Origin: Haloarchaeobius amylolyticus
Lineage (GTDB): Archaea; Halobacteriota; Halobacteria; Halobacteriales; Natrialbaceae
Assembly (NCBI RefSeq): GCF_026616195.1
Contig: NZ_JANHDH010000002.1
Location: 186,001-250,000, forward strand
Reading direction: 5' to 3'
Length of the DNA: 64,000 bases
The notes under the pieces are model-generated. The model saw only the letters and a program-made list of their open reading frames with translations. It made no database searches and was not told the origin of the DNA. Positions 30,626 to 53,541 of the stretch are shown one piece after another (position 1 is the first letter of the stretch; each line of letters starts with the position of its first letter). The position numbers were made by a program, and so were the translations under genes.

Positions 30626-30723
30626 TGATTTTGTATCAGACACAAATACATTCGCACGTGATAAGGGTTCGCGAACCAAGGCGAAAGTAAAGTTAGGATT
30701 ACGGCTCCTCCCTGAACAGGATT

Positions 30724-31679: not shown

Positions 31680-31766
31680 CCGAGGCGGGGGCATCGGTTA
31701 AAACATCGGTGCGTACAAATACCTTCAAGTGGTTTCCGCTTGGGAACACTAATAAGAGACTATAGA

Positions 31767-33251
31767 ATGAGTACCGATAATCTAGAAGTTGCGAAAACTG
31801 GACAAGAGAAAGGAGAGTCCGTTTTCGACAACCGCTCACTTGCAGATATCTACGGAGAAATACAGGACACTTACCTAGCGGATGACCGTCCTTGGGTCAT
31901 TGGGTACAGTGGCGGCAAGGACTCAACCACTGCCCTCCAGCTAATTTGGTACGCTATCGAAGATCTCCCAGAGAATAAAAGAGACAAGCCAATCCATGTT
32001 ATCTCAAGTGATACCTTAGTCGAAACTCCGAAGATTGTCAACCACATCATCTCCACTCTCGAAAATATCAACGAATATGCAGAAAAGAAAAATCTACCTT
32101 TCACGGCTCACAAGGTCACTCCCAAGGTCGACGACTCATTCTGGGTTAACCTGATTGGCCGAGGCTACCCAGCACCGAACCAGAACTTCCGCTGGTGTAC
32201 CGAACGCCTCAAAATCGACCCTGCTGACCGCTTCATCGAGAACAAAGTCTCCGAACACGGTGAAGTCATAGTCGTCTTGGGAGCACGCAAAGCAGAATCA
32301 GCCACCCGCGAGCAGGTGATGGAGATGCACAGCATCGAAAGCAGCGTGCTCTCCCGCCACAACAAGTTCGCTAACGCCTTCGTCTACACCCCCATTGAGG
32401 ATTGGATCGTCGATGACGTTTGGACGTACCTCATCCAGGCTGTCGAAAACCCGTGGGGCAAGAACAATAGAGACCTTGCAGCCCTCTATCAGGAAGCCGA
32501 CGACGAGTGCCCTATGGTGATCGATACGAAGACCCCGTCCTGCGGGAACAGCCGGTTCGGTTGCTGGACATGCACCGTCGTCTCAGAGGACAAGGCTATG
32601 CAAAACATGATCGACGAGGGCGAGGACTGGATGGAACCCTTGCTGGAGTTCCGTGACTTTCTCAAAGAAACCCAAGACCCGGAGAAGAAGCCGAAATTCC
32701 GGCAAGTAAAGGGCCGTCAACACGGCTACGTCAAGGAGAAAAACAACGGCAGCGATGGCATCATCCCCCGTGCCCACAAGTTCGAGTTCTGCAAAGATCT
32801 GCTGCGCAAGCTTCTGGAAACGCAGAAAGAAGTCAACGAGGGTCTCCCTGGAGACGAAGAGATGGAGCTGATTCGAGAGGAAGAACTCAGAGAGATTCGC
32901 CGTCTGTGGCGTGAAGAACGTGCAGACTGGGCCGACTCCGTGCCACGGATCTACAACGAGGTCATGGACAACAACCTCAACTGGGTACACGACGACCTCG
33001 GCTCCTTCGGAGAGATGGAAGCAGAAGTTCTGAAAGACATCTGTGAGGATCACGATGTACAACCAGAACTTATCAAACGCCTGCTCGACACCGAGTTCCA
33101 GCACTACGGAATGAAACGCCGGGCCTCCATTTACAGCGAGATAGACAAAGTCATGAGAGAGGACTGGCGCGATCTGGAAGAAATCGTTGCAGAGATCGAA
33201 GGAGAGGACCGGATAGAAGCCTGGCAGTACGACGGTATCGGAGGAAGCTGA
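31767..33251 (+). CDS. dndC: DNA phosphorothioation sulfurtransferase DndC
   Basis: A 494-residue protein from the ATG at 31,767. It has an ATP-pyrophosphatase PP-loop (GYSGGKDSTTALQL at about residue 50), WCTERLK, and a later CGNSRFGCWTC. The last group and the WCTERLK cysteine make the 4Fe-4S site expected in DndC. DndC activates the DNA backbone with ATP and supplies sulfur to replace a non-bridging oxygen. It heads the dndC-dndD-dndE-dndA operon, with a 9-base gap to dndD. A TATA-like stretch lies upstream. Confidence 0.95.
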   Translation: MSTDNLEVAKTGQEKGESVFDNRSLADIYGEIQDTYLADDRPWVIGYSGGKDSTTALQLIWYAIEDLPENKRDKPIHVISSDTLVETPKIVNHIISTLENINEYAEKKNLPFTAHKVTPKVDDSFWVNLIGRGYPAPNQNFRWCTERLKIDPADRFIENKVSEHGEVIVVLGARKAESATREQVMEMHSIESSVLSRHNKFANAFVYTPIEDWIVDDVWTYLIQAVENPWGKNNRDLAALYQEADDECPMVIDTKTPSCGNSRFGCWTCTVVSEDKAMQNMIDEGEDWMEPLLEFRDFLKETQDPEKKPKFRQVKGRQHGYVKEKNNGSDGIIPRAHKFEFCKDLLRKLLETQKEVNEGLPGDEEMELIREEELREIRRLWREERADWADSVPRIYNEVMDNNLNWVHDDLGSFGEMEAEVLKDICEDHDVQPELIKRLLDTEFQHYGMKRRASIYSEIDKVMREDWRDLEEIVAEIEGEDRIEAWQYDGIGGS

Positions 33252-33260
33252 AGGTACTTT

Positions 33261-35288
33261 ATGAGAATAAATAAACTGGAAATCACGGACTTTGGACCCT
33301 ATCGTGGTCCCAACGAGATCACTCTCTCATCAAGTGACGACTCTCCTATTGTCCTGTTCGGCGGGAAAAATGGGGCGGGGAAAACCACTCTGTTTGAGGC
33401 CATAGGATTCTGCCTACACGGGAAATCTTCACTCGGCCGCCGCACCGCCAGAAAGGACTACGAACAGACTATCCGAAGTAAACTCCACGAATATCCTGAC
33501 GGAAAAGCAGACGAAGCCTCAGTTCGTCTGGAGTTCGAGTACGCCCACATGGGCGAAGTTGACCACTACTCGGTCGAACGCTCTTGGCGAGACAGAGGTA
33601 AGAGCATCGTCGAGAACCTGGAGGTTCGGAGAAACGGGCAGATACCCTCTGAGCTGAACGAAGACCAGTGGCAGGACTTTCTCAAGGAACTTGTCCCGCC
33701 CGGCGTCTCACAGCTGTTCTTTTTCGATGGCGAGAAAATTCAGGAACTCGCATCCGCAGTTGAATCTGACGCCGACTTCGAGGACTCGATGTACTCCCTC
33801 TTAGGTTTGGACCTAGTCGAACGGCTGGACACTGACCTCTCCATCTACATCTCCCGCAAGTTGGATGAAAGCGGGGTCGAAGGTATCAAAAACGAACTCG
33901 AAGAACTCAGAGAAGAACGAGTCGAGTTTGAGCAGGAACTCAAAGACCTCCAGCAGGAGAAGGAGGAGAAAAAAGAGAGGCTGCAGGAACTGGATTCAAA
34001 GATCGAAAACAAAGAAGCCAAAATCGCTCAGGAAGGTGGATCATATGCCGAAAAGCGGGGAGAGCTGAAAGAACGTCGGGCAGAACTCAAAGCCAGTATT
34101 GAACAACGCGAGGACCAGATCCGGGAAATCGCCATGGGTGCATACCCGTTTACCCTGGCACCCGATCTGTGTGAGGCCGTAGTTGACCGGCTCAAGACTG
34201 AGACAGAACGGCAGAACAAGGTAACTGCCAGAGACGAACTCACTGACGAACTCAACGATGTTCTCGGAGATAATGATGTCTGGCAGGAAACCGATGTTCC
34301 TGAAAACCAGATCGGGGAAGTCGCTGAACGTATCAAGCGAAAGCTCCAGGGACGTCTTGAGATCGATGACGAAGAGCCAGAACTTGCACACCAGTTCTCC
34401 GAAGCACAACGCCAGGAAATCTACTCTCTGGTGGACAAGGCCCTACACAATGTTCCGCAGCAGCTGTCAGAGGCAACTGAAGAACTGGAAGAAGAAACCC
34501 GAGAACTTCAGGAAGTAGAAACTGGCTTAGGCAAAGCACCTGATGAAGAACTCATCTCCCCGCTTATCGATGACCTCAACGAGCTGACGGAAGAGAGAGG
34601 TGCGATCAAGTCTCAGCTGGAAGAACTCGAAGAAGAGACCAGTAAGACACAGACAAAGCTCGAACGGAAAGAAAACGAGATCGAGAACAAACTGGAGAAG
34701 AAAGCCCGTGTCGAAGATGTCTCCGAACGGGCAAACCTAGCTACAGACGTACGTGACGCAGTTCAAGACTTCCGAGAACAACTTGCCAAGGAAAAACTCC
34801 GGAAACTGGAGAGCAAACTCAGTGACCGGTACATCACTCTCTCCAACAAGGGCGATTTCTACGACGAGATTGAGATAGACGAAGACACCCTTGACATCTC
34901 CATCAAGACCATCCACGGCAACAAAAAGCCGCACACCGAGCTTTCCGCGGGTGAACGACAGATATTCGCCACCTCTCTACTCTGGGCGCTAGCAGATATC
35001 TCCGACCGCCCACTTCCGTTCATCGTCGACACGCCCCTTGGACGCCTCGACAACGACCACCGGGACAACCTCATCACGCACTTCTTCCCCGAAGCAGCTC
35101 ACCAAGTCATCATTTTTTCTACCGACACGGAAATCGACGACAGCCAGTACCAGAAACTAGAGGGATACATCTCCAATGCCTACCACCTCGAATACGACGA
35201 AACAGAAGGCCGGACCATTCCCTCGAAGGGCTACTTCTGGGGCGACGATGACGAAAACCAGCAGTCCCTGGAGGAGATCACCTCATGA
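33261..35288 (+). CDS. dndD: DNA phosphorothioation ATPase DndD
   Basis: A 675-residue SMC-like ATPase. Walker A is GGKNGAGKTTLFEAI near residue 40. A coiled coil of about 350 residues lies in the middle without a zinc-hook CxxC. The C-terminal lobe has LSAGERQIFATSLLWAL and the DndD-type Walker B FIVDTPLGRLD. DndD works with DndC and DndE on target DNA. It overlaps dndE by four bases (ATGA). Confidence 0.95.
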   Translation: MRINKLEITDFGPYRGPNEITLSSSDDSPIVLFGGKNGAGKTTLFEAIGFCLHGKSSLGRRTARKDYEQTIRSKLHEYPDGKADEASVRLEFEYAHMGEVDHYSVERSWRDRGKSIVENLEVRRNGQIPSELNEDQWQDFLKELVPPGVSQLFFFDGEKIQELASAVESDADFEDSMYSLLGLDLVERLDTDLSIYISRKLDESGVEGIKNELEELREERVEFEQELKDLQQEKEEKKERLQELDSKIENKEAKIAQEGGSYAEKRGELKERRAELKASIEQREDQIREIAMGAYPFTLAPDLCEAVVDRLKTETERQNKVTARDELTDELNDVLGDNDVWQETDVPENQIGEVAERIKRKLQGRLEIDDEEPELAHQFSEAQRQEIYSLVDKALHNVPQQLSEATEELEEETRELQEVETGLGKAPDEELISPLIDDLNELTEERGAIKSQLEELEEETSKTQTKLERKENEIENKLEKKARVEDVSERANLATDVRDAVQDFREQLAKEKLRKLESKLSDRYITLSNKGDFYDEIEIDEDTLDISIKTIHGNKKPHTELSAGERQIFATSLLWALADISDRPLPFIVDTPLGRLDNDHRDNLITHFFPEAAHQVIIFSTDTEIDDSQYQKLEGYISNAYHLEYDETEGRTIPSKGYFWGDDDENQQSLEEITS

Positions 35289-35686
35289 GCCAGAAGTTCA
35301 ACCGCATCACGATAGGTAACGACGCCACCAATCGGTTGAAAATGTTGAAAGCCAACACCGGCATGACGCCGAACTACCTGTGCCGGATCGGGTTCTGCTA
35401 CTCCCTGAACGAACCACGGCCACCAAATCCGGAAGAATACGACAACGAGGGCCAGACGTTCAACCGGTACACCCTCCTCGGAGAACACGACGCACTCTAC
35501 ATGGCCCTCCTGAAGGAGCGGCTAATCCAGGAAAACAAAGATCCTGAAGAGGATTTGTACGATGAGTTCGTCGCACACCTCAACCGAGGAGTGATCAGAG
35601 TCCACGGCAACGTCAGAGACCTAACCGATCTCGAAGATTTGGTACCCGGTGAAGTGAAAGGGAAGCACGCACAACAGGAAGGATAA
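35285..35686 (+). CDS. dndE: DNA phosphorothioation protein DndE
   Basis: A 133-residue protein, as expected for DndE, with the family-like N-terminus RITIGNDATNRLKMLKANTG followed by TPNYLCRIGFCYSL. DndE binds nicked DNA and supports the sulfur transfer complex. It is coupled to dndD by a four-base overlap, and to dndA with a one-base gap. Confidence 0.92.
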   Translation: MSQKFNRITIGNDATNRLKMLKANTGMTPNYLCRIGFCYSLNEPRPPNPEEYDNEGQTFNRYTLLGEHDALYMALLKERLIQENKDPEEDLYDEFVAHLNRGVIRVHGNVRDLTDLEDLVPGEVKGKHAQQEG

Positions 35687-35687
35687 C

Positions 35688-36866
35688 ATGACTTCTGACG
35701 TGGAAACTCCCATCTACCTCGACCACCATGCCACCACCCCTGTAGACGAAGACGTCATTGAGGAGATGAAGCCCTACTTCATAGAACATTACGGGAACCC
35801 TGCGAGCGAAGACCACATCTACGGGGCCAACGCCAAAAGAGCGGTCAACGAAGCCAGAGAACGCATCTCAGAAGTGGTGAACTCCCGCCCCGAGGAAATC
35901 ATCTTCACCAGCGGAGCTACCGAATCCGACAACTTAGCTATCAAGGGAGCAGCCGAGTACGCGGCCAAACACGACAAGGGGAACCACGTCATCACAGCTG
36001 TCACCGAGCATGAAGCTGTACTCGAAGCCTGCGAAGCAATGGAAGAGAAAGGGTTCGCTGTTACATACCTTCCTGTCGACGAACACGGCCAGGTCGATCC
36101 CAGCGACGTAGAAACCGCGATCCGTGACGACACCGTGCTAATCTCGATTATGGCCGCAAACAACGAGATCGGTACCACCGCACCTCTCAACACAATCGGT
36201 GACATCGCCAAAAAGAAAGAGGTCTTCTTCCACACTGATGCAGTCCAGGCAATCGGATACCTCCCCATCGATGTTGAGGAAATGGGGATCGACCTGATGT
36301 CTATCTCCGGTCACAAGATCTACGGGCCGAAAGGCGTCGGAGCACTCTATGTCCGCCGCAGAAATCCAAAGGTGAAACTCGAACCTTTGCTTCACGGCGG
36401 CGGGCACGAACGAGGCTGGAGATCTGGTACGCTCAATGTACCGTCTATCGTCGGGTTTTCAAAGGCAGTTGAGATGGCCGACAAGAACATGAAGGAACGT
36501 ACTAACCACGTGAATGCGCTCACCACCTATATGTGGGAACGATTCAACGACGAGCTGGACAATATCGTCCTGAACGGTCATCCGGAGAAACGGATACCCA
36601 ACAACCTGAACATTAGTTTCGCAAGCGTAGAGAACAAGGCCCTCGTCAAGAACCTGCAACCTGATATAGCAGTCTCAGCAGGTTCGGCGTGCACCACGGG
36701 CCAGGTAGAAGCCTCACACGTCCTTCAGGCCATCACCGAGAACGAAGCCAGGTGGCACAACGCAATACGATTCGGCTTCGGGAAAGACAACACCAAAGAA
36801 GAGATTGAGTACGCCACCGACGAAGTAATCAAGATAGTTAACAGACTCCGCAACCTGTCCTTCTAG
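35688..36866 (+). CDS. dndA: cysteine desulfurase DndA
   Basis: A 392-residue class V aminotransferase-fold desulfurase. PLP lysine lies in MSISGHKIYGPKG, and the substrate His in FHTDAVQAIGY. The persulfide cysteine loop is SAGSACTTGQ. It feeds sulfur from cysteine to DndC. Its position in the dnd operon separates it from housekeeping IscS-like enzymes. Final gene of the plus-strand modification operon. Confidence 0.95.
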   Translation: MTSDVETPIYLDHHATTPVDEDVIEEMKPYFIEHYGNPASEDHIYGANAKRAVNEARERISEVVNSRPEEIIFTSGATESDNLAIKGAAEYAAKHDKGNHVITAVTEHEAVLEACEAMEEKGFAVTYLPVDEHGQVDPSDVETAIRDDTVLISIMAANNEIGTTAPLNTIGDIAKKKEVFFHTDAVQAIGYLPIDVEEMGIDLMSISGHKIYGPKGVGALYVRRRNPKVKLEPLLHGGGHERGWRSGTLNVPSIVGFSKAVEMADKNMKERTNHVNALTTYMWERFNDELDNIVLNGHPEKRIPNNLNISFASVENKALVKNLQPDIAVSAGSACTTGQVEASHVLQAITENEARWHNAIRFGFGKDNTKEEIEYATDEVIKIVNRLRNLSF

Positions 36867-38429: not shown

Positions 38430-38432
38430 GCT

Positions 38433-39779: not shown

Positions 39780-40100
39780 GCTTTCTTCTTAAATAGGGTC
39801 TCTCCGTGCTACTGTAAAAATACTTTGCCAGTTATAGACAATCAAACGAAGTCGATTGGATTCCGTTTGCGTTCCTCTTTTAGGGTGAGATTCCCTAACC
39901 GTGATCTACGAGCTGTTCTTCCTGATCATCTCTATGGCAAGAGGTGTTCTGGATTCCAGTGGAGTCATCAATTACCCTCTCCAGATCTGTTTCAATAGGA
40001 CCATCTGAGTTTGAGGTTTTGCCTCACGATAGTTAAGATCAGCCGCACTTGGGGCCTGTGGGAAAAATTCAAATACCTACTAGCTATTGCTAGATTTCAG
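39780..40100 (+). other. divergent promoter region between GHKL gene and pbeA
   Basis: No ORF with start and domain features was seen; the longest frame runs into pbeA in phase (from 40,011) but lacks conserved-looking sequence. A TATA-like caaatacct lies near 40,070, about 25-30 bases before the pbeA ATG. A T/A-rich stretch near 39,815 may serve the minus-strand GHKL gene. Both promoters are inferences from spacing. Confidence 0.5.
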
Positions 40101-42074
40101 ATGGTAAGTTCTGACAAGGGGCTAAGAGACTTGGATCTCCCCGACGTCATCGAAACCTCTGACGTAGACTTTGCTGAGGAATTTTACAACCCTGCCCTTA
40201 GTGTCTCGGTAGAGTACAAGCGAGGTGTCGGCTACTTTACCAGCAATTGGTTTAAGCACGCTTCAAGAGGGCTGAAGGGTCTCGCGGAGAACGAAGGCAC
40301 CGCCAAGTGGATAATCAGTCCAATACTGGAGGAAGAGGACTGGGAAGCCCTTCAGAAAGGGGAGGAAGCTAAACGAAGCCAGGAACTATACGACCGCCTC
40401 AAAAACTTGGTCTCCGACATTGAGGAGGGACTCGAAAAAGAGACCCAGAATACCATTGCGTGGATGATCGCTGACGGTCTTCTTGACATCAAGCTCGCAA
40501 TCACCGGGGAAAACCTCTCCGGCGACTTCCACGACAAATGGGGAATCATGCGAGACGCCAACGACGACAAAATTGCCTTTCACGGCTCCCAAAACGACAG
40601 CAGCAAAGGATTCTCAAACTACGAATCCTACACTGTCTTCATTTCCTGGGACTCCGAACGCGAAGCAAACAAATTGGCAAAGCACGAGAGACGGTTCGAC
40701 GATATCTGGGACAACGCCAAACGAGGGGTGTACAGCCTCTCACTGCCTGACAGTATCTCCCTCAACATAGCTGAACTACGGGATGACGACCGTCCCTACG
40801 ACAACCCCTCTGAATCAAGGAAACTGACCAGCGCCTACCGCTGGCGTCACCAAGAAGTAGCAGTGAACAAGTTCCTGGAAAACGGTCACGGCATCCTCGA
40901 CATGGCCACCGGAACCGGGAAAACCCGGACCTCCCTCAAAATCCTGAACCGCCTGCTAAGACAGGACGCCGTAGAGAACATCGTCGTCGCCACCCGAGGA
41001 AACGACCTCCTTGACCAATGGTACGACACCCTATCAGAGAGCTTCAGCGCAGACGAAATGTGGATCTACCAGGAATACGACGGCGACCACGACCTCAGCC
41101 AGTTCTTGACCAAGAACCGTGACAAGTTGGAAGCCCTGATCATCTCCTATGATAACCTACACGAAGTAATCGAAAACGATGTCAACAACAAAATCCCTCG
41201 AAGCCTGTTGATCGCGGACGAAGTCCACAACATCGGTAGCGACACACGACAAGCCAACTTGACCGGAAAACTCGAAGCCTTCAAACACCGGCTCGGCCTC
41301 AGCGCCACACCCTTCGACCCCTACGACCCGGACAGGAACGACTTCATACGAGACGAAGTAGGGCCCGTCGTCTACGAGTTCTCCGCCGAAGACGCAATCA
41401 AAAGAGGAATCCTCACCGAACTCGACTACACACCGCTCTTCTACGAACTCTCAGAAGAGGACAAGGAAGAGCAAAAAGCAGCGTTCGGCAAATACAGCGG
41501 CTTGAAACAGCAGAATCCGAACATCCCGAAAAGCCAGCTGTACATCATGCTGGCTAAGGTCCGGAAAACCTCCGAGGAGAAACTACCTGTCTTCCGAGAA
41601 TACCTGGAGAACAACCCTGAAATCCTCGAGGGCTGCCTCATCTTCGTCGAGACAAAGGAGTACGGGCACAAGGTCCAGAAAATCATCCACAACCACACCA
41701 AGAGCTACCGGACCTACTACGGGGAAGACCCGGAGGAAACACTCGAAGCCTTCTCAAACGGCGATATCTCCACCCTTGTCAGCAGCAAGGCAATCTCCGA
41801 AGGCATCGACATCAAATCCGTGAAGAACATCATCCTGTTCACATCCAACCGTTCCAAAGGAACCACCATCCAGCGCATCGGCAGAGCACTCAGAACGGAT
41901 CCTGATAACCCTGGGAAAACAGCTAACATAGTTGACTTTGTTGTCAGGAGTGACATCGAAGAAGAACCTGAGGACAACGAAGACGATGAGGATGACGAGG
42001 TCGACATACCCCCGGACAAGATTCGGTACGACTGGCTCAACGACCTCAGCAAAGTTTCAAAGGAGGAAAACTGA
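40101..42074 (+). CDS. pbeA: PbeA-like PLD-domain superfamily II helicase
   Basis: A 657-residue protein from the ATG at 40,101. N-terminal 230 residues form a phospholipase-D-like nuclease domain (FHDKWGIM, then GSQNDSSKG). The helicase follows: Walker A DMATGTGKTRTS, DEVH box LLIADEVHN, GLSATPFDP and motif VI IQRIGRALR. Archaeal phosphorothioation defence of the DndCDEA-PbeABCD type pairs modification genes with four restriction-like genes; position and content fit PbeA. The name is assigned by order and domain, not by alignment. Confidence 0.8.
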   Translation: MVSSDKGLRDLDLPDVIETSDVDFAEEFYNPALSVSVEYKRGVGYFTSNWFKHASRGLKGLAENEGTAKWIISPILEEEDWEALQKGEEAKRSQELYDRLKNLVSDIEEGLEKETQNTIAWMIADGLLDIKLAITGENLSGDFHDKWGIMRDANDDKIAFHGSQNDSSKGFSNYESYTVFISWDSEREANKLAKHERRFDDIWDNAKRGVYSLSLPDSISLNIAELRDDDRPYDNPSESRKLTSAYRWRHQEVAVNKFLENGHGILDMATGTGKTRTSLKILNRLLRQDAVENIVVATRGNDLLDQWYDTLSESFSADEMWIYQEYDGDHDLSQFLTKNRDKLEALIISYDNLHEVIENDVNNKIPRSLLIADEVHNIGSDTRQANLTGKLEAFKHRLGLSATPFDPYDPDRNDFIRDEVGPVVYEFSAEDAIKRGILTELDYTPLFYELSEEDKEEQKAAFGKYSGLKQQNPNIPKSQLYIMLAKVRKTSEEKLPVFREYLENNPEILEGCLIFVETKEYGHKVQKIIHNHTKSYRTYYGEDPEETLEAFSNGDISTLVSSKAISEGIDIKSVKNIILFTSNRSKGTTIQRIGRALRTDPDNPGKTANIVDFVVRSDIEEEPEDNEDDEDDEVDIPPDKIRYDWLNDLSKVSKEEN

Positions 42075-42077
42075 CCC

Positions 42078-42266
42078 ATGGCAAAACCAGAAGTCGAAGA
42101 AATCGTTGAAGAGGTAATGGAAAAACACGGTCAATCAGACGTGGTCAAGGAGAGATTCCTGAACTTCTACGAAAACGCGATAGAGGAAAACTTCGGCGGC
42201 AACGACCTGCAAGGACTGATTAACACAGTAGAACTCACCGAAGAGGAGAGACTCGATGGATCTTAG
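42078..42266 (+). CDS. pbeB: PbeB-like small protein
   Basis: A 62-residue, acidic, helical product (KPEVEEIVEEVMEKHGQSD). It starts 3 bases after pbeA and overlaps pbeC by 11 bases, so it is part of the same tight operon. Its identity as PbeB rests on order alone. It might be a connector between the PLD helicase and the ATPase. Confidence 0.6.
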   Translation: MAKPEVEEIVEEVMEKHGQSDVVKERFLNFYENAIEENFGGNDLQGLINTVELTEEERLDGS

Positions 42267-44214
42267 AATCACAGGCTTCCGGTACCACAACATCCGGGAG
42301 TTCAAAGACCTGGAAATCGACTTGACGCGAGACGGCGAGGACGCCCACCACATCTCGCTCGTCCAGATGCCTAACGGCACCGGAAAAACCACTACTATGG
42401 ACCTGATCCGGACTGTCCTCGTAGGTAAGGATTTGAGTAAAAACAAGGAAGGAGAGCTCACCGTCTCAAACCTGGAACCCGAGGACTTCGACGCAATAGA
42501 AGGCTGGTTCGAAGCTGACTTCAAATCCAACGACACCCCGTTCACCTTCCGTCTGGAACTTGACTACGAAACCTACGACCACCAGTACCGGACCATCACC
42601 CCCAGCGAAACTGGCGGCGGGGATATGCTCGGCCACTCCCTACCCAACCACGAACTGAACACGATCATCAACGAGTCCTTCGCCAACTTATTCGTCTTCA
42701 ACGGCGAGCTCACCCAAGACTTCATCCAAACCGGGAAAGACGAAGCCGAGAACGCCCTTAAAATCGTCAACTACCTCAACCGGATCGAGGATCAGAGGAA
42801 CAAGATCCCCCAAGAAGTAGAAGAAAAACAGAACGAGGAAGAGGTCACAAGCGTCAAAAGCGAATCCGGTTACCGCAACCTCAAGGGTCGACTAGATACC
42901 GCCCAGAAGAAACTGGAAAAACTGGAAGCGCGGGAAGAAACCCTTGAAACAGAAATCAGTGACCACGAAGACGCTATCCAGGACTTAGGTACAGAACGCA
43001 GCGAACTCTTAGCCGAGAACCAGGAGCAACTAGAGAAGGACCAGCGCCTGGAACGAGAAATCAACGAAGTCCGAGGCGAAATAGAAGACGCGACGGACGA
43101 ACTCCTAGAGCGGATGCGCTCTCCCAGTCAACTTCACAGAGACTTCCACGACGACATGGGAAAACTGGTGAAGAACATGAACATCATGGAGCTGCCGAAA
43201 CCCACCTCCCAAGAGTTCTTCACCGAGCTATCCAAACGCCCGAAATGCATCTGCGGCAGGGAAATCGACGAAGAACACGCCAAAACCATTCTGACCAACG
43301 CCGACCACTACCTTTCAGAAGAAGATATCGGCGTCCTCAATCTGCTCAAAGAAAACCTGCGAGGAGTACCCGACTTCGAGGACTATGAAGACAAGTTCGA
43401 GGAGTTAGATGATAAACGGGAGAAGTTGGAGCAGAAAAAGCAGGAGAAAGGCAGAGTCGACCTTGACGATCCGGACCTCAGCGAACGACTTGAGAAGATC
43501 ACCGAGCAGAAAGAAGAGGAGAAACGGCAGAAAAGACAGAAAGAAGAAGAGCTTCGTAAACTCACCAGCACCGACAAAAATGAGAGAGAAGAACTCGGTC
43601 TCGACTGGAAGAACAACATCCACCTCTGCCGCCAAAAAGTCCAGGAGCGGAAAAAAGAGGTTCGAGAAGCCAGTAACACCGTCAACTTCGGGAAGAAAGC
43701 AGACAAACTCGAAAGTATCTTCGACGAGTTTATCGACCGATACCTTAACGAACTCAAACATAATCAGATCGACGAAACCAACCAACGCCTGAAGAAAATC
43801 CTCGGCCTCTCACAAGTACAAATCGAGGCCATAGACAACTCCATCAGGATCAAAGGGAAAGAGGACGTCTCCGAAGGCCAAAGCCTCTCAATCGCCTACG
43901 CCTACCTCTCCACCCTGTTCGAGGACTCCGCAATCGATGTACCGTTCGTCATCGACAGCCCGGCGGTCAGCATCGACTACGAGAAACGAGCAGAAGTCGC
44001 ACCGATCATCTCCAACCTGTTCGATCAACTGGTGATCTTCGTAATCTCCTCCGAACGCGAACGCTTCGTCAGCGAACTCGATTCAGGCGACATCAAATAC
44101 TGTACCATCCACAAAACCGAGCAACCAGGCGAAGTCGAGAAAAGCCTGGACAAGGACTACTTCATGGACTTCCAATCCGAAACCGAAGAAGAACAACTGG
44201 AAGAGGTGGCCTGA
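42256..44214 (+). CDS. pbeC: PbeC-like SMC/Rad50 ATPase
   Basis: A 652-residue protein. Walker A is MPNGTGKTTTMDLI, then a coiled coil. A zinc-hook-like CICG lies at the apex (RPKCICGREI). The C-terminal lobe has VSEGQSLSIAYAYLS and Walker B VPFVIDSPAVSID, in which the usual acidic residue after Asp is Ser, as in related DndD/Rad50 variants. It ends directly before pbeD (TGA then ATG). Function as part of the Pbe restriction complex is inferred from the operon. Confidence 0.8.
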   Translation: MDLRITGFRYHNIREFKDLEIDLTRDGEDAHHISLVQMPNGTGKTTTMDLIRTVLVGKDLSKNKEGELTVSNLEPEDFDAIEGWFEADFKSNDTPFTFRLELDYETYDHQYRTITPSETGGGDMLGHSLPNHELNTIINESFANLFVFNGELTQDFIQTGKDEAENALKIVNYLNRIEDQRNKIPQEVEEKQNEEEVTSVKSESGYRNLKGRLDTAQKKLEKLEAREETLETEISDHEDAIQDLGTERSELLAENQEQLEKDQRLEREINEVRGEIEDATDELLERMRSPSQLHRDFHDDMGKLVKNMNIMELPKPTSQEFFTELSKRPKCICGREIDEEHAKTILTNADHYLSEEDIGVLNLLKENLRGVPDFEDYEDKFEELDDKREKLEQKKQEKGRVDLDDPDLSERLEKITEQKEEEKRQKRQKEEELRKLTSTDKNEREELGLDWKNNIHLCRQKVQERKKEVREASNTVNFGKKADKLESIFDEFIDRYLNELKHNQIDETNQRLKKILGLSQVQIEAIDNSIRIKGKEDVSEGQSLSIAYAYLSTLFEDSAIDVPFVIDSPAVSIDYEKRAEVAPIISNLFDQLVIFVISSERERFVSELDSGDIKYCTIHKTEQPGEVEKSLDKDYFMDFQSETEEEQLEEVA

Positions 44215-44685
44215 ATGTCATTCCGACTCAGCAAAGAGGCCAGAAGTTATTACGGCAACATAAACAAGAACAGCACCATCAACAAACTGGATACGGACTG
44301 GGACAAATACTACCTCTCCGCAATGGCTGGGATCAAAGCTCGGAGCCGGGTCCCTGACGACGAAGAACCTCCTGCAGAACAGGAGTTCGTCGACTATGTC
44401 ATCCAAAGCTACGAAGACCAGAAATACGAGATCTACGGGGCACTGATCGTGGCTGAGATTGAGCGCGAAGGGATTCCCTGGGGACAGAAAGAGGAAATCA
44501 AGCAGCTGATGCTCACCCTTCTGGACTCTAACACCAATACCCGACTCTCCAATGAAGGAACCCAGGCTCTCAACTGTTACGCGGAGAAAGGCTCCCGCCT
44601 AATCAGAAGCGAGATCATGCCTCCGCCGAAGCTGGACACTTTCCTTGAACGCTACTACGAACTCCTCGACGACCTCGGAGACTGA
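44215..44685 (+). CDS. pbeD: PbeD-like protein
   Basis: A 156-residue soluble protein, predicted mainly helical, with no catalytic motif recognised. It follows pbeC directly and ends the operon. Name assigned by gene order in the dndCDEA-pbeABCD arrangement. No further domain can be read. Confidence 0.65.
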   Translation: MSFRLSKEARSYYGNINKNSTINKLDTDWDKYYLSAMAGIKARSRVPDDEEPPAEQEFVDYVIQSYEDQKYEIYGALIVAEIEREGIPWGQKEEIKQLMLTLLDSNTNTRLSNEGTQALNCYAEKGSRLIRSEIMPPPKLDTFLERYYELLDDLGD

Positions 44686-44801: not shown

Positions 44802-44822
44802 CGCATTATGAGACAGTCCTGT

Positions 44823-45341
44823 ATGCCTGGTGACGCCGATGGAATAGTCGACACCGTGACCGACATCAGCAACGATCATCGGATAACCCAAGACCGTATC
44901 TCCGACCTGATCCAGGATCTCGGCTTCAACCCCGACAATGCAGAATTCAACGTCGTCATGGAAGACATGGTTCCGCCAACCTCCGGCGAAGCCATGATGG
45001 AGAAAAGAGCAGAGGCACATGAACGCAGCCTCGTCATCGACGCCCTTGTACAGGAAACCCTGTCGTATCCACCGGTCGCAATCTACTCGCCAAAAGAAGC
45101 AGACAGGGAACGAATGGCAATTATGCCAGGCGAGGAAGCCGACGAAATCGGAAGAGAATCTTCCTCCAAACTCTGGCTACACACAGCTTCAGAAGTCTCC
45201 AAAGCCGAGTCAACAGTCCTCGTCTCACCGGTGATCATCTCGGTAAGCGACTCCGACGACGTAACCCAGCACTTCCACACTCACAGCTTCGACAAAAAAG
45301 ACGCACAGGAACTCATCGAGCTCATCCACGACAAAACATGA
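44823..45341 (+). CDS. hypothetical island protein
   Basis: A 172-residue protein from the ATG at 44,823. N-terminal 60 residues are helical and acidic; a middle part contains SYPPVAIYSPKEADRER, and the C-terminus is rich in His/Asp (VTQHFHTHSFDKKD). No family recognised. It overlaps the following zinc-finger gene by four bases (ATGA), so the two are probably functionally linked. Confidence 0.55.
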   Translation: MPGDADGIVDTVTDISNDHRITQDRISDLIQDLGFNPDNAEFNVVMEDMVPPTSGEAMMEKRAEAHERSLVIDALVQETLSYPPVAIYSPKEADRERMAIMPGEEADEIGRESSSKLWLHTASEVSKAESTVLVSPVIISVSDSDDVTQHFHTHSFDKKDAQELIELIHDKT

Positions 45342-45544
45342 CCGATACGAAATACGCTCCCAGTCCCATCAAGTGTCGAGAATGCGGAACAGAACTCGAA
45401 ACCATCGAGAAAGGCCACCTGCAAAGCCAGAACTGCACCGGAGAAATAGACGATGTGGAGGATTACCGAAAGAAGTACCCGGACGCACCTACCCGTACTA
45501 CCGAGATGCGCGACAAGATCGTGGACAACCTGACGGAGAACTAA
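45338..45544 (+). CDS. small zinc-finger protein (MucR/Ros-like)
   Basis: A 68-residue protein. IKCRECGTELETIEKGHLQS followed by a Cys and VEDYRKKYPDAPT resembles MucR/Ros-type fingers, where a CxxC and His/Cys pair precede a Y-x-x-K/R-(Y/F)-P segment. Such proteins bind DNA or replace HNH linkers in phage proteins. It is coupled to the preceding gene. DNA binding is inferred. Confidence 0.6.
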   Translation: MTDTKYAPSPIKCRECGTELETIEKGHLQSQNCTGEIDDVEDYRKKYPDAPTRTTEMRDKIVDNLTEN

Positions 45545-46435: not shown

Positions 46436-46688
46436 CCTCGCCGTCCACTCTTATCACCAACTTATCCGGACGAACACTACGCCTACTCTTCGATTCCCGG
46501 AAGTGTGGTCAGATCTCTCCGACAGATTCTATATCGGTAACCACCTCCGTAGTTGCCCGGTTTTATTCACAGCAATAGTACGTATTTGAAACTAAAAAAG
46601 GGGGCCCGACCCTCTCCTGGATAGAGGACCTGGGTCTCGTTGTCCAACTCAAATAGATATTTCTGGGATGGTCTCTTCTCACGTCATA

Positions 46689-48233
46689 ATGGCTGATACT
46701 TGGATCGGCGTCACAGATAGCCGACCCACACCACTCCTGAACTCGCTAATAGCGTCGATTGAAAGCGGCGATAACCCTGACGACATTCTCGTCTTCGTAC
46801 CGGAGAACGACAAAGATGTACTGCCCTCCATCCGCCGACTCATCGAGAACGTCTGCCGCGAATATAATGTGGACGCCAGGATCAAACTCTCCATAACACC
46901 CAGCGTCAATAAACCTAAAAAGCTCTCACAGCACGTCTTAGAGACTCTTCAAGAACAAGGGGATGGAAACGCTGTCAGCATCTCCAGCGGATCACGGCTT
47001 CTTAACGCCTGCCTTATCGGAGCCAGCAACCAACTCGACCAGTTCAAACTCGACCATCTCTACACCTTAGAAGGCTCCAACCCAGCTAACCTGGAGTCCA
47101 CTATCTACCCGATGATTCCACGGCCCGAGATGAATCTCATAGACTATCAAAAGAACTCTGCTCTGGAACTAACCGGTCCAGGAGATCACGGTAGCACCGA
47201 CGACATCTACAAGATTACCAGAGAGCAGCTTCCCCTTCTCTTCAACGCACTCTACAGCACCGGGAACCCGATTATCTCCGTAGACCACAAATCCAGTATC
47301 CTCTCTACCCTCTATAAAATTGAGCTGGATCGAGGAACTCCCGCCTCTATCCGGTTCACAAACGGTGTCAGTCAATACCAGAAAGAAAGATCCGAAGTAG
47401 GACGCCGTCACGGAGAACAAGCAGAATCAGAAATCCCAGACCACAGGGCCTTCATTGGCGCATTTACTTCCAGCGTGCTAGAGTTCGAAAACCAAGACGA
47501 GATTTCGGACTTCATCGACCCATACAGAAACCGGCGTCTAGAACATGGGAACACTGAATCCCTCGCAGTCTTCGACACTAACCTGATACAGTACTGGCCT
47601 GCTCGCCAACTGGGGGTAGCCCCTGAGCAAGAGCGAGGTTTGAACGGATATGCCGTCGTCACCGGGGTTCGGGACGAATTGATGAACTACGATGGTGATG
47701 AAAAAATCAATAACACCCGGCAACTCGAAGACGCCTTCGGCCAAGAATATAGAGAACTTCGTAACCAATTGAAGAAGACACCGCGGCAGCTCCGGCTTGG
47801 ACGACAGTATTTCAGCCGACTACAACGTGAACTATACACCGAGAAGATTCAGTCTGGTATGGAGGATAACAATATCACCGTTGCCTGTGAAGGAGTCCAC
47901 CAAACCGGGGGGTTCGATCTCCTGCTATTCAGCAACGACTCCGGGTTCATCTCCACGGCTAGAGATCGTGGCCTACCCTCGGTACTCGTTGATTTCCCTC
48001 AAAAACTTCCACGGAAAAAGGGTGTCACATGGGAAGACGCATCTACCGCTCTCTACCTCCACGCCGTCCAATTCGGCATTCTGGAACTTCCGAAAATCGA
48101 CCTGTACGGCGTATGGCCGCGAAAACGTCCTGAAGACTGGGATGCTGAAAAGATTGCAGTCAGATGCCGCAGCCCGGTCGTGGCCAAACAGCTCAACCGG
48201 TACCAGAATATCCTCGACGAATCCCCCCGGTAG
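46689..48233 (+). CDS. CARF-like sensor fused to PIN ribonuclease domain
   Basis: A 514-residue protein from ATG 46,689. The N-terminal 150 residues look like a Rossmann-type CARF domain: WIGVTDSRPTPLLNSLIAS, DDILVFVPENDKD, and SISSGSRLLNACLIGAS at the position where CARF proteins have their conserved ligand loop. The C-terminal third is a PIN domain: SLAVFDTNLIQYWP, TGVRDELMN, and LLFSNDSGFISTARDRGL with the expected acidic residues. CARF-PIN fusions are known in archaea. Here it would be a ligand-controlled RNase without any CRISPR genes in the window. The CARF call is tentative, the PIN call good. Confidence 0.65.
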   Translation: MADTWIGVTDSRPTPLLNSLIASIESGDNPDDILVFVPENDKDVLPSIRRLIENVCREYNVDARIKLSITPSVNKPKKLSQHVLETLQEQGDGNAVSISSGSRLLNACLIGASNQLDQFKLDHLYTLEGSNPANLESTIYPMIPRPEMNLIDYQKNSALELTGPGDHGSTDDIYKITREQLPLLFNALYSTGNPIISVDHKSSILSTLYKIELDRGTPASIRFTNGVSQYQKERSEVGRRHGEQAESEIPDHRAFIGAFTSSVLEFENQDEISDFIDPYRNRRLEHGNTESLAVFDTNLIQYWPARQLGVAPEQERGLNGYAVVTGVRDELMNYDGDEKINNTRQLEDAFGQEYRELRNQLKKTPRQLRLGRQYFSRLQRELYTEKIQSGMEDNNITVACEGVHQTGGFDLLLFSNDSGFISTARDRGLPSVLVDFPQKLPRKKGVTWEDASTALYLHAVQFGILELPKIDLYGVWPRKRPEDWDAEKIAVRCRSPVVAKQLNRYQNILDESPR

Positions 48234-48321
48234 ATATCCAGTGAATACGCCGAGAAGCTCTGTGGATTGGTGTAACATAGGCCAGTAACATTGATTACAC
48301 CCTACCCCGAAATTTACAGCA

Positions 48322-49329
48322 GTGGTTATTCGTATTGAGTCTCTCACTGTAGAGAACCTGCGATGCTTCCGTGGCGAGCACCGGCTGGATCTCGACCGAA
48401 GCGACGAACCCAGTATCGACGTGGTGCTAGGCTCCAACGGCCTGGGCAAAACCACGTTAGCCGATTCGATACATCTCTGTCTCACCGGGGAGTTCGACGA
48501 CGAAGCTCCTTTAGTCACCTACGAACTGGTCGACGAGCTCTCTCCTGGTGAAGAAATCTCTGCCAAGGTCTCGACCGTAATCGCTGACAGCGAAATCAGT
48601 CGACGGTTCCGTTTCACCCGTAAGTTCCAGACGTCCGAGACACGCCGGGGGCCGGTCAACTCCGTGGACTCGCTACAGGTCAAAGAGGAGCAGAATGGTG
48701 AATGGGTCAGCACCAGCTCGTCAGAGGCGATAAACACAATGTTCCCGCTTCCTGCCTTCACGTTTTCTAAGCTGGACGCGGAATCCTCGGTTGGGATTGA
48801 TGACCCTTGGGGCGGCACCAGTTGGAGCGAACTTGTCGAAGCCGTAGGCGAAGCAGCAGCCCGACAGTCAGCAGCACGCGGCACAGATCTCCCCGAATAC
48901 TTCGCCAACGACTACGACCTCGGAGACGAGATGATCAGTCGGATCAACGACCTGCTCCCAGAACTTGATCAACGTGACTTGTACCACGTTGAGGAGAGGC
49001 AGGATGGTCTCGTCGCTCGCAGAAAAGAAAATGGCTCCCCGAAAGAGATGGCCGCCCTCTCTGCGGGGGGTCAGATGATCATCTCAAATGCCGCCGCTTT
49101 GGTTGCTGGCGAGGTCATGCCTGCGATCCCTCCGCTGATCGGAGATACGATGTTCGGTCGCGTGGATCATGCTACCAGAGAACGGATGTTCGAGGCCATT
49201 AACCAGGCAGACCGGCAGGTCCTGTTGTTCTGCACCAACGCTGAACTGGATGGGTTCGATCTTTCTCCCATGTTCAAACTCAAACAGCGTGAGAAAGGTA
49301 GAGAGAGTAAGATTGTTGCCGCTGATTAG
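48322..49329 (+). CDS. compact DndD/Rad50-like ATPase without coiled coil
   Basis: A 335-residue protein starting at GTG 48,322. N-terminal RIESLTVENLRCFRGEHRLDL and Walker A VLGSNGLGKTTL are typical of SMC/Rad50/DndD heads. After about 170 residues without a coiled coil, the C-terminal lobe has LSAGGQMIISNAAAL and PPLIGDTMFGRVD. That last motif closely parallels DndD (VDTPLGRLD), with Thr after the Asp. It lies 88 bases behind the CARF-like/PIN gene on the same strand. It may regulate or power that effector; this is inference. Confidence 0.75.
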   Translation: MVIRIESLTVENLRCFRGEHRLDLDRSDEPSIDVVLGSNGLGKTTLADSIHLCLTGEFDDEAPLVTYELVDELSPGEEISAKVSTVIADSEISRRFRFTRKFQTSETRRGPVNSVDSLQVKEEQNGEWVSTSSSEAINTMFPLPAFTFSKLDAESSVGIDDPWGGTSWSELVEAVGEAAARQSAARGTDLPEYFANDYDLGDEMISRINDLLPELDQRDLYHVEERQDGLVARRKENGSPKEMAALSAGGQMIISNAAALVAGEVMPAIPPLIGDTMFGRVDHATRERMFEAINQADRQVLLFCTNAELDGFDLSPMFKLKQREKGRESKIVAAD

Positions 49330-50660: not shown

Positions 50661-51779
50661 ATGGTCCCCGATCCTTCGGGTGGAACTGAATCGTTCGATT
50701 GTTCGGCAGATGAATCAGCGGGTGTCCTTTCGAACGTTCTTGCTAATGAACTCAATTCTTGGTACAAAAGCCAACAACACAAGAGAAACGTCGAGAGGGG
50801 GAAACCCTATTTCAACGGACCCTCTCCGGTACCAGACCCACGACGACACAGTCCAAGCCAGCTGCTCAAATGCCACCGTCGGGTATACTACCAGCTCCAC
50901 AATGCTCCAGCGGAGAAAGGAGAGCCGACTGGAATCTTCTGGTTCGGTTCGCGTTTCGAAACCGAGGTCGCTGTTCCCTTTCTTCAGAGCCTGACCAGAG
51001 ATGGCGAGTACATCCGAAATTCGATGTGGGTGGATTTCACCGTCGATAGTACAGACCAGTCAATTCGAATTCGCGGTGAGACGGATTCAGTGTTCGTCGA
51101 CGCCGATAGCGAGCCGCTCCTGTTGACTGAGATTAAAACGACCACCTCTCTCAGCAATCTCGAGGCCCCGAAACCACAGCACCTTGCCCAGGTTCACGCC
51201 TATCTCTACGGTCTTTCGGAGCAATTCGAGCGTAGACTCTCGGACGCAGTCATCCTATACGCGAAGCGTGATGACTTCTCGACCAGAGTATTCCACGTTC
51301 AGTTCGAGCAAGAGTTCTGGGAAGATCGAGTTCTAACTTGGGCCAGCCAGAACTCAGAATATCGGCGAAGTCAATCACTCCCACCACCGACTCCAGAATT
51401 CGAGTGGGAGTGCGACTACTGCCCGTACCGAAGACGCTGTGGTCGGGCAGGAAGCCAGTTCTCGGACGAGGACGTCACTGGTCTGCTACCGTTCACTGAT
51501 GACTATCCAAGAGCGCAACTGGAGAACTACCTCGAGGCCTATCCTGACGCGAAGCTAACGCCGACTCTGGCACTGCGGTATCCTGAACTAGCTGAGGAGT
51601 GGGGTACATACGACTGGCAGTGCCCAGCTTGTAGCTCCTCGTACTCGTTCGAGAGCGTGGATTGGGACGGCGACCTAGAGCAACTGCCGTACTGCAAACC
51701 ATGTGCTGAGAGTGGTCTATTGGCCACCCTCGAGGAACCGAAGCCAGATGTACAACCTGCGACCCGGAGAGAGGAATAA
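50661..51779 (+). CDS. Cas4-like PD-(D/E)XK exonuclease
   Basis: A 372-residue protein. A first cysteine (LLKCHRRVYY), RGETDSVFVD, LLLTEIKTTTSL, QVHAYLYGL and CDYCPYRRRCGRA make a RecB/Cas4-type nuclease with four Fe-S cysteines. A C-terminal zinc ribbon (CPACSSSY and CKPC) is extra. It is directly followed by TFB (stop then ATG). Such Cas4-like genes are common on haloarchaeal mobile elements outside CRISPR loci. No cas1 or cas2 is in the window. Confidence 0.85.
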   Translation: MVPDPSGGTESFDCSADESAGVLSNVLANELNSWYKSQQHKRNVERGKPYFNGPSPVPDPRRHSPSQLLKCHRRVYYQLHNAPAEKGEPTGIFWFGSRFETEVAVPFLQSLTRDGEYIRNSMWVDFTVDSTDQSIRIRGETDSVFVDADSEPLLLTEIKTTTSLSNLEAPKPQHLAQVHAYLYGLSEQFERRLSDAVILYAKRDDFSTRVFHVQFEQEFWEDRVLTWASQNSEYRRSQSLPPPTPEFEWECDYCPYRRRCGRAGSQFSDEDVTGLLPFTDDYPRAQLENYLEAYPDAKLTPTLALRYPELAEEWGTYDWQCPACSSSYSFESVDWDGDLEQLPYCKPCAESGLLATLEEPKPDVQPATRREE

Positions 51780-52577
51780 ATGCCAACCAAAACTCCAGTA
51801 TCGAATGAATCAGACCGACTTTCGAACAAATTCGGTCAGTGTCCGGCCTGCGGATCTCGTCGACTCCGCGAGCTGGTCTCGTCGCTTGAACCTATCTGCG
51901 ACGACTGTGGGGCTGTTGCCTCTGATACGATTGAACACCCGACAATCTTGGAGAATTCAGATGATGAAGCCTCGATGGAACTCTCGTGGTCAGACTACTA
52001 CACGATAACGAACAGCACCGAGCAGCAGGTAGCCACTGCAATGGGGGTCCTAGATACCCTTGCTGATGAACTGAACCTCGACACGAACGTCCGAGAGCGA
52101 GCGGCAGCCATCTATGCCGAGGCAGCTATCGAAAATCTCACTGATGGTCGTCCCACTGAACTCTTGATTGGTTCGGTCATTGCTGTGGCTGCACGCGAAC
52201 TACAGGACCCACGTCCCACGGGTCGTATTGCATCTGCGGCCACTGTCCGGGCTGGTTCACTTGGGCGTCTCATTCGACGACTCACGAGGGAACTCGCCCG
52301 CCCGAGCCCTGTCTGTCGTCCAAATGACTACCTGCCGTACCTTCGTCAGGAGCTCAGTCTCGATGCCCAGTACGAAGATGCTGCGCTGGAACTGCTAGAG
52401 TCTCTTGACGAGACTACCATTTCAGGGAAATGCCCAGTAGGGTTTGCTGGTGCTGCACTCTACCTCGCGTCTGATGGACTCGTTACCCAACGACAAATTG
52501 CGCAGACAGCCGCGATCACTGGAGAGACTCTGCGTGTGAGAGTAAGAGATATCCGTTCAAATGAGGTGAAAAAATGA
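51780..52577 (+). CDS. tfb: transcription initiation factor IIB (TFB)-like protein
   Basis: A 265-residue protein. N-terminal zinc ribbon CPACGSRRL plus CDDCG, and two cyclin-like repeats (TAMGVLDTLADELNL, and FAGAALYLASDGL). Haloarchaea carry several TFBs for alternative promoter use; element-borne copies are known. It follows the Cas4-like gene without spacing and overlaps the recombinase gene by four bases (ATGA). Confidence 0.88.
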   Translation: MPTKTPVSNESDRLSNKFGQCPACGSRRLRELVSSLEPICDDCGAVASDTIEHPTILENSDDEASMELSWSDYYTITNSTEQQVATAMGVLDTLADELNLDTNVRERAAAIYAEAAIENLTDGRPTELLIGSVIAVAARELQDPRPTGRIASAATVRAGSLGRLIRRLTRELARPSPVCRPNDYLPYLRQELSLDAQYEDAALELLESLDETTISGKCPVGFAGAALYLASDGLVTQRQIAQTAAITGETLRVRVRDIRSNEVKK

Positions 52578-53512
52578 CCAGTCAAGATACCGCCTTAGTT
52601 GGGGCTCTCCAGCCTTCAAATGAATCCAATTCAATTCTCAGGGCAGCCGTCTACGCACGAACATCGACCACCAGCCAAAAATATGGATACTCGATTGGTG
52701 AACAGGTCCGCCTGTGTGTTGACCGATGCCATCTACTCGGCTGGGAGGTTCACTACATCTTCCAGGACGAAGCCGAGAGTGGGAGTGATACGGACCGGCC
52801 AATGTTCCAACGGATGATTTCGATGGCTGAAGCCGATGCATTCGATGTCCTCGTCTTCTGGAAGCTGGATCGGTTTTCGAGATCGATCATGCACGCAGTC
52901 CAGCTTGAGAAACAATTCTCCGATATGGGACTCGCACTCCATAGCGTGACTGAGCAACTGGATACGACGAGCCCAGCCGGTAGATTCAATTTCAGGAATA
53001 TAGCCAACGCAGCCGAATTTGAGAGAGAACTAATCAAGCAACGAACGAAGATGGGTCACCTCGCCAGGGCGATGGAACACAAATGGCCGAATTCATCGCC
53101 ACCGCTCGGGTACGAGGTGCGCGAGGACGGATATCTAGAGGTCGTTCCCAGTGAAGCCACCCTTGTGAGACGGATATTCAGGGAGTACATAGAGCAAGAG
53201 TCCATGCCCGCTGTAGCGGAGGTATTAAACCAGGACCAGAGGTTCGGGAAAGGGAATATGCAGTGGACACCAAACTCGGTTGGTGCTATTCTCAGGAACC
53301 CCATTTACACTGGTGAATACTCGGTTCGGTCGGTCAGTGCAAGAGTAGATGAATATCGAATCTTGAGTGACGAACTTTTCCAGAAAGCAACGGATGTTCG
53401 GACTCGGTTTCAGACTTCGAACAACGCTCCCAAGCCTGCAATGGCAAAGCAGAGAAAACGAAGACTCGTGACCGAAGTTCTGGATAAATATCTTGAGTAC
53501 TTGGAGGACTGA
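52574..53512 (+). CDS. serine recombinase 1
   Basis: A 312-residue serine recombinase. The catalytic domain has AAVYARTSTTSQ (nucleophilic Ser in the YARxS region), SGSDTDRPMFQRMI, VLVFWKLDRFSRS. A recombinase domain (GYEVREDGYLEVVPSEATLVRRIF, then WTPNSVGAILRNPIY) follows. The length is shorter than large serine integrases because the C-terminal coiled-coil/zinc region is reduced. Overlaps TFB by four bases. Confidence 0.9.
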   Translation: MTSQDTALVGALQPSNESNSILRAAVYARTSTTSQKYGYSIGEQVRLCVDRCHLLGWEVHYIFQDEAESGSDTDRPMFQRMISMAEADAFDVLVFWKLDRFSRSIMHAVQLEKQFSDMGLALHSVTEQLDTTSPAGRFNFRNIANAAEFERELIKQRTKMGHLARAMEHKWPNSSPPLGYEVREDGYLEVVPSEATLVRRIFREYIEQESMPAVAEVLNQDQRFGKGNMQWTPNSVGAILRNPIYTGEYSVRSVSARVDEYRILSDELFQKATDVRTRFQTSNNAPKPAMAKQRKRRLVTEVLDKYLEYLED

Positions 53513-53541
53513 CCCTTGGTGGAATCAGTTTTGTATACTAC

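Follow-up and report, generated by a model that had tools for sequence, protein, structure and literature searches.

The window analysed here, 64,000 nucleotides of Haloarchaeobius amylolyticus (assembly GCF_026616195.1, contig NZ_JANHDH010000002.1, positions 186,001 to 250,000 of the forward strand), carries two adjoining genes, here called A and B, downstream of the Dnd-Pbe genes of a phosphorothioation system. By profile and by fold, the product of A is a CARF-PIN protein and a member of an already described family, not of a new one; the product of B is predicted to be a reduced ABC-type ATPase head related to DndD and PbeC. The unusual part of the locus is the fused A together with B, since the A family otherwise consists of two adjoining genes in haloarchaea. 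A search of open-access literature suggests, weakly, that three features are new: the fusion of a CARF sensor with PIN, a DndD/PbeC-like ATPase in reduced form, and the conserved pairing of the two. We suggest, tentatively and at somewhat less than even confidence, that the pair is a signal-gated suicidal nuclease with its own ATPase, an accessory defence module that would back up Dnd-Pbe.

Gene A and its split relatives

Scans of Pfam and NCBIfam returned no family name for A. Nearly its whole length is matched by the PADLOC profile CARF_m1 CARF-PIN (PDLC01973), which has the same domain order (E=1.1e-28, residues 11-500), and the general CARF-PIN model matches it as well (1.4e-18); the CARF_m1 family reportedly goes back to the 2020 CARF classification of Makarova and colleagues. 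Relatives of A match PIN_4, over the cut-off in one of three. The four acidic residues of the PIN domain (Table 1; numbering of the 521-residue form) are invariant in the 38 rows of the alignment, and the domain matches the structures 3i8o and 1o4w, in agreement with the original prediction of a PIN C-terminus with intact acidic residues. At the CARF motif, the split CARF relatives mostly read V-D-x-T-P-G-R-K in the alignments; their T-P-G-R-K is missing from the fused clade, which has S-S-G-S-R in four of four sequences, the motif being our own observation with no published criterion behind it. Because CARF-PIN and CARF_m1 are already modelled in PADLOC, and a 2014 study described two families that combine CARF with PIN (PMC4012209), the earlier designation of A as part of a new system finds no support in that form.

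The structure of A was predicted with AlphaFold2 from an alignment of PIN rows only, because mixed CARF and PIN alignments misplaced one half or the other. The mean predicted local distance difference test score (pLDDT) of the model is 80.6, with most of the PIN part above 90; in the CARF half, which has no relatives in the alignment, average values are 71-89 for residues 21-90, and confidence drops to a low level between about residues 91 and 177. The top three Foldseek matches, and the only ones with E<0.001, are chains of SiRe_0806 from Sulfolobus islandicus (PDB 9jxw/9jxx) with cyclic tetra-adenylate (cA4; E=2e-10), a protein for which the literature search found no paper. Like A, SiRe_0806 combines CARF and PIN, along the whole length of A, and VIA-align superposes the two at Z 16.2 over 355 residues with a root-mean-square deviation (rmsd) of 11.4, which indicates that the domains match but sit differently; the identity in structural alignments is 11-14%, the whole-chain rmsd is above 10, and neither A nor the PIN-row profile has a sequence match to it. 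Further CARF matches in VIA-align are Cdn1, Card1, Csm6, Can2, Csa3 and ring nucleases (Z of about 9-12.8), mostly with an rmsd of 2.4-3.7 over 110-137 residues. Since two non-CARF Rossmann structures of the ATP pyrophosphatase type, 3rk1 and 2d13, reach Z 8.5-8.8, the margin of CARF over the general Rossmann fold is modest. Sequence searches of solved structures with A or with the PIN-row profile gave no match; matches to the CARF profile were ring nucleases, further CARF entries and, weakly, 9jxw, together with TAL-effector and methyltransferase entries that were read as artefacts. The CARF-like N-terminus that had been proposed for the 514-residue protein is thus recovered both by the CARF_m1 profile and as a fold in the AlphaFold2 model.

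A single-protein search with A for close relatives in genome contigs returned none. A search with an alignment of the PIN half yielded 42 loci; its patterns do not fit A of the window, and fused members of the window type, missed there, were found in the order-wide search described below. None of the 42 loci is fused: in 40, an open reading frame (ORF) for a CARF protein of about 157 residues lies directly before one for a PIN protein of about 345 residues. In 36 of these 40 the start of the PIN gene overlaps the CARF stop by 1 or 4 bases, and one of the other four (L095) is a start-choice artefact. Of the two loci left, L119 is interrupted by the end of its contig and L133 has a truncated PIN gene. 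Among 50 further genomes with a non-fused A match, a set that overlaps the 42 loci in species, separate CARF and PIN ORFs were found in 48 and a fusion in none; in G329 the two ORFs occupy opposite ends of a single contig, and G022 and G162 show a piece only. These 50 genomes also serve in the DndC comparison below. Long open frames near A matches, such as those in G379 and G297, were checked as hidden fusions and proved to be split. In a tree of 35 PIN sequences (the three fused ones and 32 of the 42 loci, ten with an odd ORF or seemingly close to another being omitted), the fused proteins group together (100/100) within the haloarchaeal sequences, at the end of a long branch. The fusion thus seems to be a single derived event, with the reservation that long branches can be misplaced. 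Set against CARF_m1 proteins, whose haloarchaeal relatives found here are split, the window clade is distinguished by being fused and monophyletic, by its changed CARF motif and by its ATPase neighbour. Among plasmid records, 12 have A-type matches at no more than 33% identity and B has one distant match; searches of viral contigs and phage records gave no relative of A or B, nor did the viral contigs yield one of DndD. The family may reach beyond the haloarchaea, as suggested by a Hydrothermarchaeota bin with a diverged split pair of CARF and PIN genes (26%; L134:1212-2743).

Gene B and the conservation of the pair

Judged from its sequence, B is a reduced ABC-ATPase head of the DndD/PbeC type with no room for a coiled coil. 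The best profile matches are to PbeC (E=2.2e-17, PADLOC), DndD (E=1.1e-14, NCBIfam, under that model's cut-off) and AAA_23 (E=2.2e-10, Pfam), and the best matching pieces fall at the two ends of the protein. B shares with DndD and PbeC (CxC) a Walker A motif, a signature and a DTxxGRxD Walker B; DndD and PbeC have about 650 residues and a long coiled coil, with a CxC hook in PbeC, whereas the 335 residues of B leave no space for coiled coil or hook. This absence, in line with the earlier description of a DndD-like head without coiled coil, was judged by length and by the two-piece profile matches, no coiled-coil predictor having been run. Because three orthologues have 331-335 residues, B is not a local truncation. 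In a tree of ATPase heads, the four B sequences group with one another (100/100) and fall on the same side of Rad50 as DndD and PbeC, the deep fork that places B with DndD/PbeC being weak (70/77). A sequence search of solved structures gave one weak SbcC match, and no AriA-type model is among the 25 of 111 PADLOC matches listed for B.

Conservation of the pair was assessed in a sample from a larger group, comprising 392 genomes of the order, with a cut-off of E<=1e-5 for A-type matches. Such matches occur in 51 genomes and a close B in four; an intact fused A is present in three (the window genome, G353 and G415), and B adjoins it in all three. This coincidence exceeds what chance would give (hypergeometric value 4e-7), with the value being no strict probability because the loci are related. 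The pair stands in window order and on the same strand both in G353 (A 89%, B 86% identity) and in G415 (A 73%, B 58%), and order, strand and spacing are kept in these three genomes of three families (f1, f5 and f4). A search of 199 relatives, in which no other close B turned up, had suggested that B is an orphan and the pair not conserved; the wider search reversed this, and the pair expected from the original prediction was indeed found together elsewhere. The nucleotide block that can be aligned with G353 (46688-49307) begins where A begins and stops shortly before B ends. Purifying selection acts on both genes: between the window and G353, the ratio of nonsynonymous to synonymous substitution rates (dN/dS) is about 0.10 for A and 0.13 for B, and against G415, where synonymous sites are near saturation, the proportion of nonsynonymous differences (pN) is 0.15 for A and 0.27 for B.

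The position beside a phosphorothioation system, noted at the outset for the window, recurs in other genomes. In G353, dndCDEA and a different Pbe set are followed by homologues of the 177- and 68-residue genes and then by A and B, as in the window. G228 has kept DndC, PbeC and PbeD, its A is cut after about residue 238 and there is no B, as expected if A and B were lost together. With a DndC cut-off of E<=1e-40, and with truncated G228 counted as a fused-A genome, DndC is present in three of four fused-A genomes versus 3 of 50 with a split or partial A (Fisher p=0.003, the genomes being few and not independent), in none of 25 genomes without A and not in the single B-only genome (G270). DndC and A lie about 12-15 kb apart in the window, G353 and G228.

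Proposed role of the pair and alternatives

The preferred reading starts from what is shown, namely the families to which A belongs with its motifs and folds, the sequence motifs in B, the conserved adjacency of the two, the purifying selection on both, the Dnd linkage and the lack of a Cas10 match. A and B would be an accessory defence module of two genes, present in some haloarchaea and mostly located beside Dnd-Pbe, in which the CARF half of A may sense a small oligonucleotide-like ligand and switch on the PIN half; this half would cut cellular RNA, which we infer to be likelier than DNA, so that the infected cell stops growing. B may be an ATP-driven partner, with a head related to DndD/PbeC, and gate A; it might keep A inactive as long as Dnd-Pbe is intact, for instance, or report the state of the DNA. 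That A and B touch, what A binds and cuts, and that the pair acts as a back-up are all inferred. A further-reaching version, in which a CARF nuclease freed from type III signalling came under the control of a reduced DndD/PbeC-derived ATPase, and the state of the phosphorothioation defence, intact or subverted, decides on suicide, we regard as doubtful. As a compact unit of two genes tied to Dnd-Pbe, the pair lends itself to two questions: can a CARF nuclease be gated by an ABC-ATPase, and does modification-based defence in archaea have a suicidal back-up?

The idea of such a back-up has precedents. A suicidal back-up function was proposed by Rakesh and colleagues for PIN endoRNases that lie at Dnd borders (PMC10853773), a further reason why the label of a new system is not supported for A. 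In a 2026 survey of BREX, pairs of an OLD-ABC ATPase and a PIN endoRNase are described as back-up modules (PMC12839542); these PARIS-like pairs resemble A-B in setting an ABC-ATPase by a PIN nuclease beside a modification-based defence, and differ from it in that their ATPase is of the OLD type and that the PIN of A has a fused CARF sensor. The silencing of PrrC by a linked restriction enzyme (PMC3874168) follows a comparable logic. As for the Dnd-Pbe system of haloarchaea, which neighbours A-B in the window and in G353, dndCDEA-pbeABCD gave protection when moved to another strain on a plasmid, and its published components do not include A or B (PMC6459918).

Several observations weigh against the proposed role. 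The altered CARF motif of the fused clade may mean that the ligand differs or has been lost, and PIN domains can act on DNA too. The signature of B is not strictly kept in G415 and G270, nor is the Walker B in G415, and the fold of B rests on sequence, the structure predicted for it without an alignment having a mean pLDDT of 34.7 and being left unused. In G415 the pair, on a 256-kb contig, occurs in a genome without DndC, and in G001, which has the split form, DndC lies about 19 kb from the CARF-PIN genes, so that the Dnd linkage is not exclusive to the fused form. There are only three intact pairs, related by descent or transfer. In G270 B stands without A beside HerA-NurA-Rad50, which are homologues of the first three HerA-NurA-Rad50-Mre11 genes of the window, and CARF-PIN is usually found without B, no B being labelled near split CARF-PIN genes in the stretches around the 42 loci, at other A loci or at 30 further loci. 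The last two points are also what one would see if A were simply a CARF-PIN nuclease of the usual defensive kind, and B a small ATPase with no relation to it, carried along in the same defence island, as defence islands shuffle genes. We consider this explanation, the likeliest of the alternatives, rather unlikely: against it stand the order, strand and spacing kept in three genomes of three families down to 73% (A) and 58% (B) identity, the purifying selection on both genes, and the alignable block in G353 that extends across the two.

The source of the signal bears on another explanation, in which A would be an effector of the cA4 type and, like type III CRISPR effectors, depend on a cyclase located elsewhere in the cell. 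CARF proteins are best known as sensors of cyclic oligoadenylates made by Cas10, the best structural match of A was solved with cA4, and the genome of the window itself has weak matches to SMODS-type nucleotidyltransferases and a Cas1 on another contig. On the other hand, Cas10, which makes the signal for type III effectors, was found neither in 199 relatives (palm2 domain, PF22335) nor in 26 A-positive genomes (Cmr2, TIGR02577), with control matches in 5 of 14 and 4 of 14 reference genomes, so type III CRISPR signalling is unlikely for A; Cas1 is present in 7 of the 26, the window's own genome among them. For the window, described earlier as free of CRISPR genes, no full scan for such genes was made; the single Cas1 of its genome lies on another contig, and the genome has no Cas10 match. 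The cyclase mCpol has no match over the cut-off in the 199 relatives (four are weak, none of them in a genome listed with A) and none in the window's own genome, SMODS matches occur in just 8 of the 26 A-positive genomes, the weak one of the window's genome included, five of them over the cut-off, and the CARF motif is changed in the fused clade, all of which makes the cA4-type effector improbable. With a CARF-nuclease family in 51 of 392 genomes and no Cas10 in 199 relatives, the source of the signal becomes a testable question. More improbable still is that A-B is an RloC-like switch that responds to DNA damage, in which a Rad50-like ATPase senses broken DNA independently of Dnd-Pbe. B does belong to the DndD/Rad50 class, AddA-like genes lie by split CARF-PIN genes in 10 of 42 loci and Mre11/Rad50 in some, and the B of G270 sits beside HerA-NurA-Rad50. 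Precedent exists in PrrC and RloC, where an ABC-ATPase controls a nuclease that is linked to a restriction system or takes its place, PrrC being kept silent by the linked restriction enzyme (PMC3874168), such control being putative in A-B. But PrrC and RloC carry the ATPase and a different nuclease, the HEPN anticodon nuclease, on one chain, whereas A-B consists of two genes with PIN and CARF, and the presence of DndC in three of four fused-A genomes speaks for a Dnd connection.

The locus and its neighbours

The features of the locus are collected in Table 1. A and B are collinear and 88 bases apart in the ORF list, as originally described, and lie in a stretch of about 44-60% guanine-plus-cytosine (GC) content (22-62 kb) surrounded by DNA of 65-70% GC. 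Two starts were considered for A, 46668 (521 residues) and an ATG at 46689 (514 residues). Nucleotide similarity sets in at 46688 against G353, at 46680 against G415 and at 46638 against G228; because of the G353 and G415 onsets, 46689 is the likely start, with the caveat that the frame of A in G415 stays open slightly further upstream. The names of the dndCDEA genes are assumed from gene order and recall, no family scan having been run on them.

Table 1. Features of the A-B locus (positions in the window)
Feature	Coordinates	Strand	Remarks
dndC, dndD, 133-residue gene in dndE place, dndA (presumed names)	31740..36866	+	90-98% identity, same order in G353
pbeA, pbeB, pbeC, pbeD	40011..44685	+	PbeA E=7e-176, PbeC E=7.6e-27 (PADLOC); pbeB and pbeD by position
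177-residue protein, no assigned family	44808..45341	+	61% homologue, same place in G353
68-residue small Cys/His-containing protein	45338..45544	+	G353 and G228 have homologues (85-86%) before A
Gene A, fused CARF-PIN protein	46689..48233	+	ORF, 514 residues (521 from ATG 46668)
CARF region of A	46689..47153	+	aligns with separate CARF proteins of ~157 residues; VIA-align Z ~9-12.8, many CARF structures
CARF motif V-S-I-S-S-G-S-R in A	46974..46997	+	same in four fused-type sequences (alignments)
PIN-protein part of A	47205..48221	+	32-37% identity to 23 split PIN proteins; separate gene of ~345 residues elsewhere
PIN nuclease domain of A	47553..48026	+	D303, E337, D400, D424; 3i8o Z 10.4, 1o4w Z 9.0
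Gene B, short ABC-type ATPase head (predicted)	48322..49329	+	ORF, GTG start, 335 residues
B Walker A GSNGLGKTT	48430..48456	+	GxxxxGKTT in all four B sequences
B ABC signature LSAGGQ	49057..49074	+	APMGQQ in G415, LPAGQQ in G270
B Walker B PLIGDTMFGRVD	49132..49168	+	DndD of the window: PFIVDTPLGRLD; last D is I in G415

Upstream of A, the 177- and 68-residue genes are both kept in G353 and only the latter in G228; the 177-residue protein, which has no Pfam or PADLOC match, is possibly part of the A unit, and the Cys/His-containing protein is possibly a regulator. A conserved non-coding element upstream of A was considered and dropped, as the alignment is too loose for such a claim. Between dndA and pbeA, a Methyltransf_35 gene and a GHKL ATPase gene occupy the minus strand (37476-39779), with no PADLOC model match at E up to 0.1. 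The low-GC stretch also contains HerA-NurA-Rad50-Mre11 genes at 23045-30679, of which HerA was identified by Pfam and the other three are presumed from gene order and recall. Downstream of A-B follow a Cas4-like PD-(D/E)XK nuclease gene and one for a TFB-type transcription factor (50661-52577) and then, near the right-hand end of the low-GC region, genes for one tyrosine integrase and two serine recombinases (52574-58398); no transfer RNA gene that could mark an insertion site was found in the 64-kb window.

The neighbours of the split CARF-PIN genes were labelled by BLAST, fragments included, for a subset of genes. Across the 42 loci they comprise ADP-ribosylglycohydrolase (13), AddA-like (10), HEAT (10), VWA (9), AAA_14/DUF4143 (8), AddB-like (5) and AbiEi (4) genes, and Mre11 with Rad50 at L109 and L119. 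In keeping with the proposed back-up role, single split-form loci adjoin other modification-based systems, namely DISARM (DrmE at L126 and, by cluster, L127), Dpd (DpdA at L118 and, by cluster, L100) and BREX (pglX at a plasmid locus), and PglZ was found at L132. An AddAB-like helicase-nuclease was rejected as an obligate partner, AddA-like matches being present in 119 of 199 genomes and, at the cut-off, absent from the window's own. A recurrent cassette of AAA_14/DUF4143, VWA, HEAT repeat, ADP-ribosylglycohydrolase, CARF and PIN genes is seen at L105, L109, L110 and L113 and in part at L123, L125 and L130, with Mre11- or AddAB-like genes after it, and may be a multi-gene defence system. At two loci a Csa3-like regulator with CARF and helix-turn-helix domains lies directly upstream of the split CARF-PIN genes (L118:5810-6457, scanned; L122:5819-6466, by cluster), and at L118 a DpdA-like gene also lies near.

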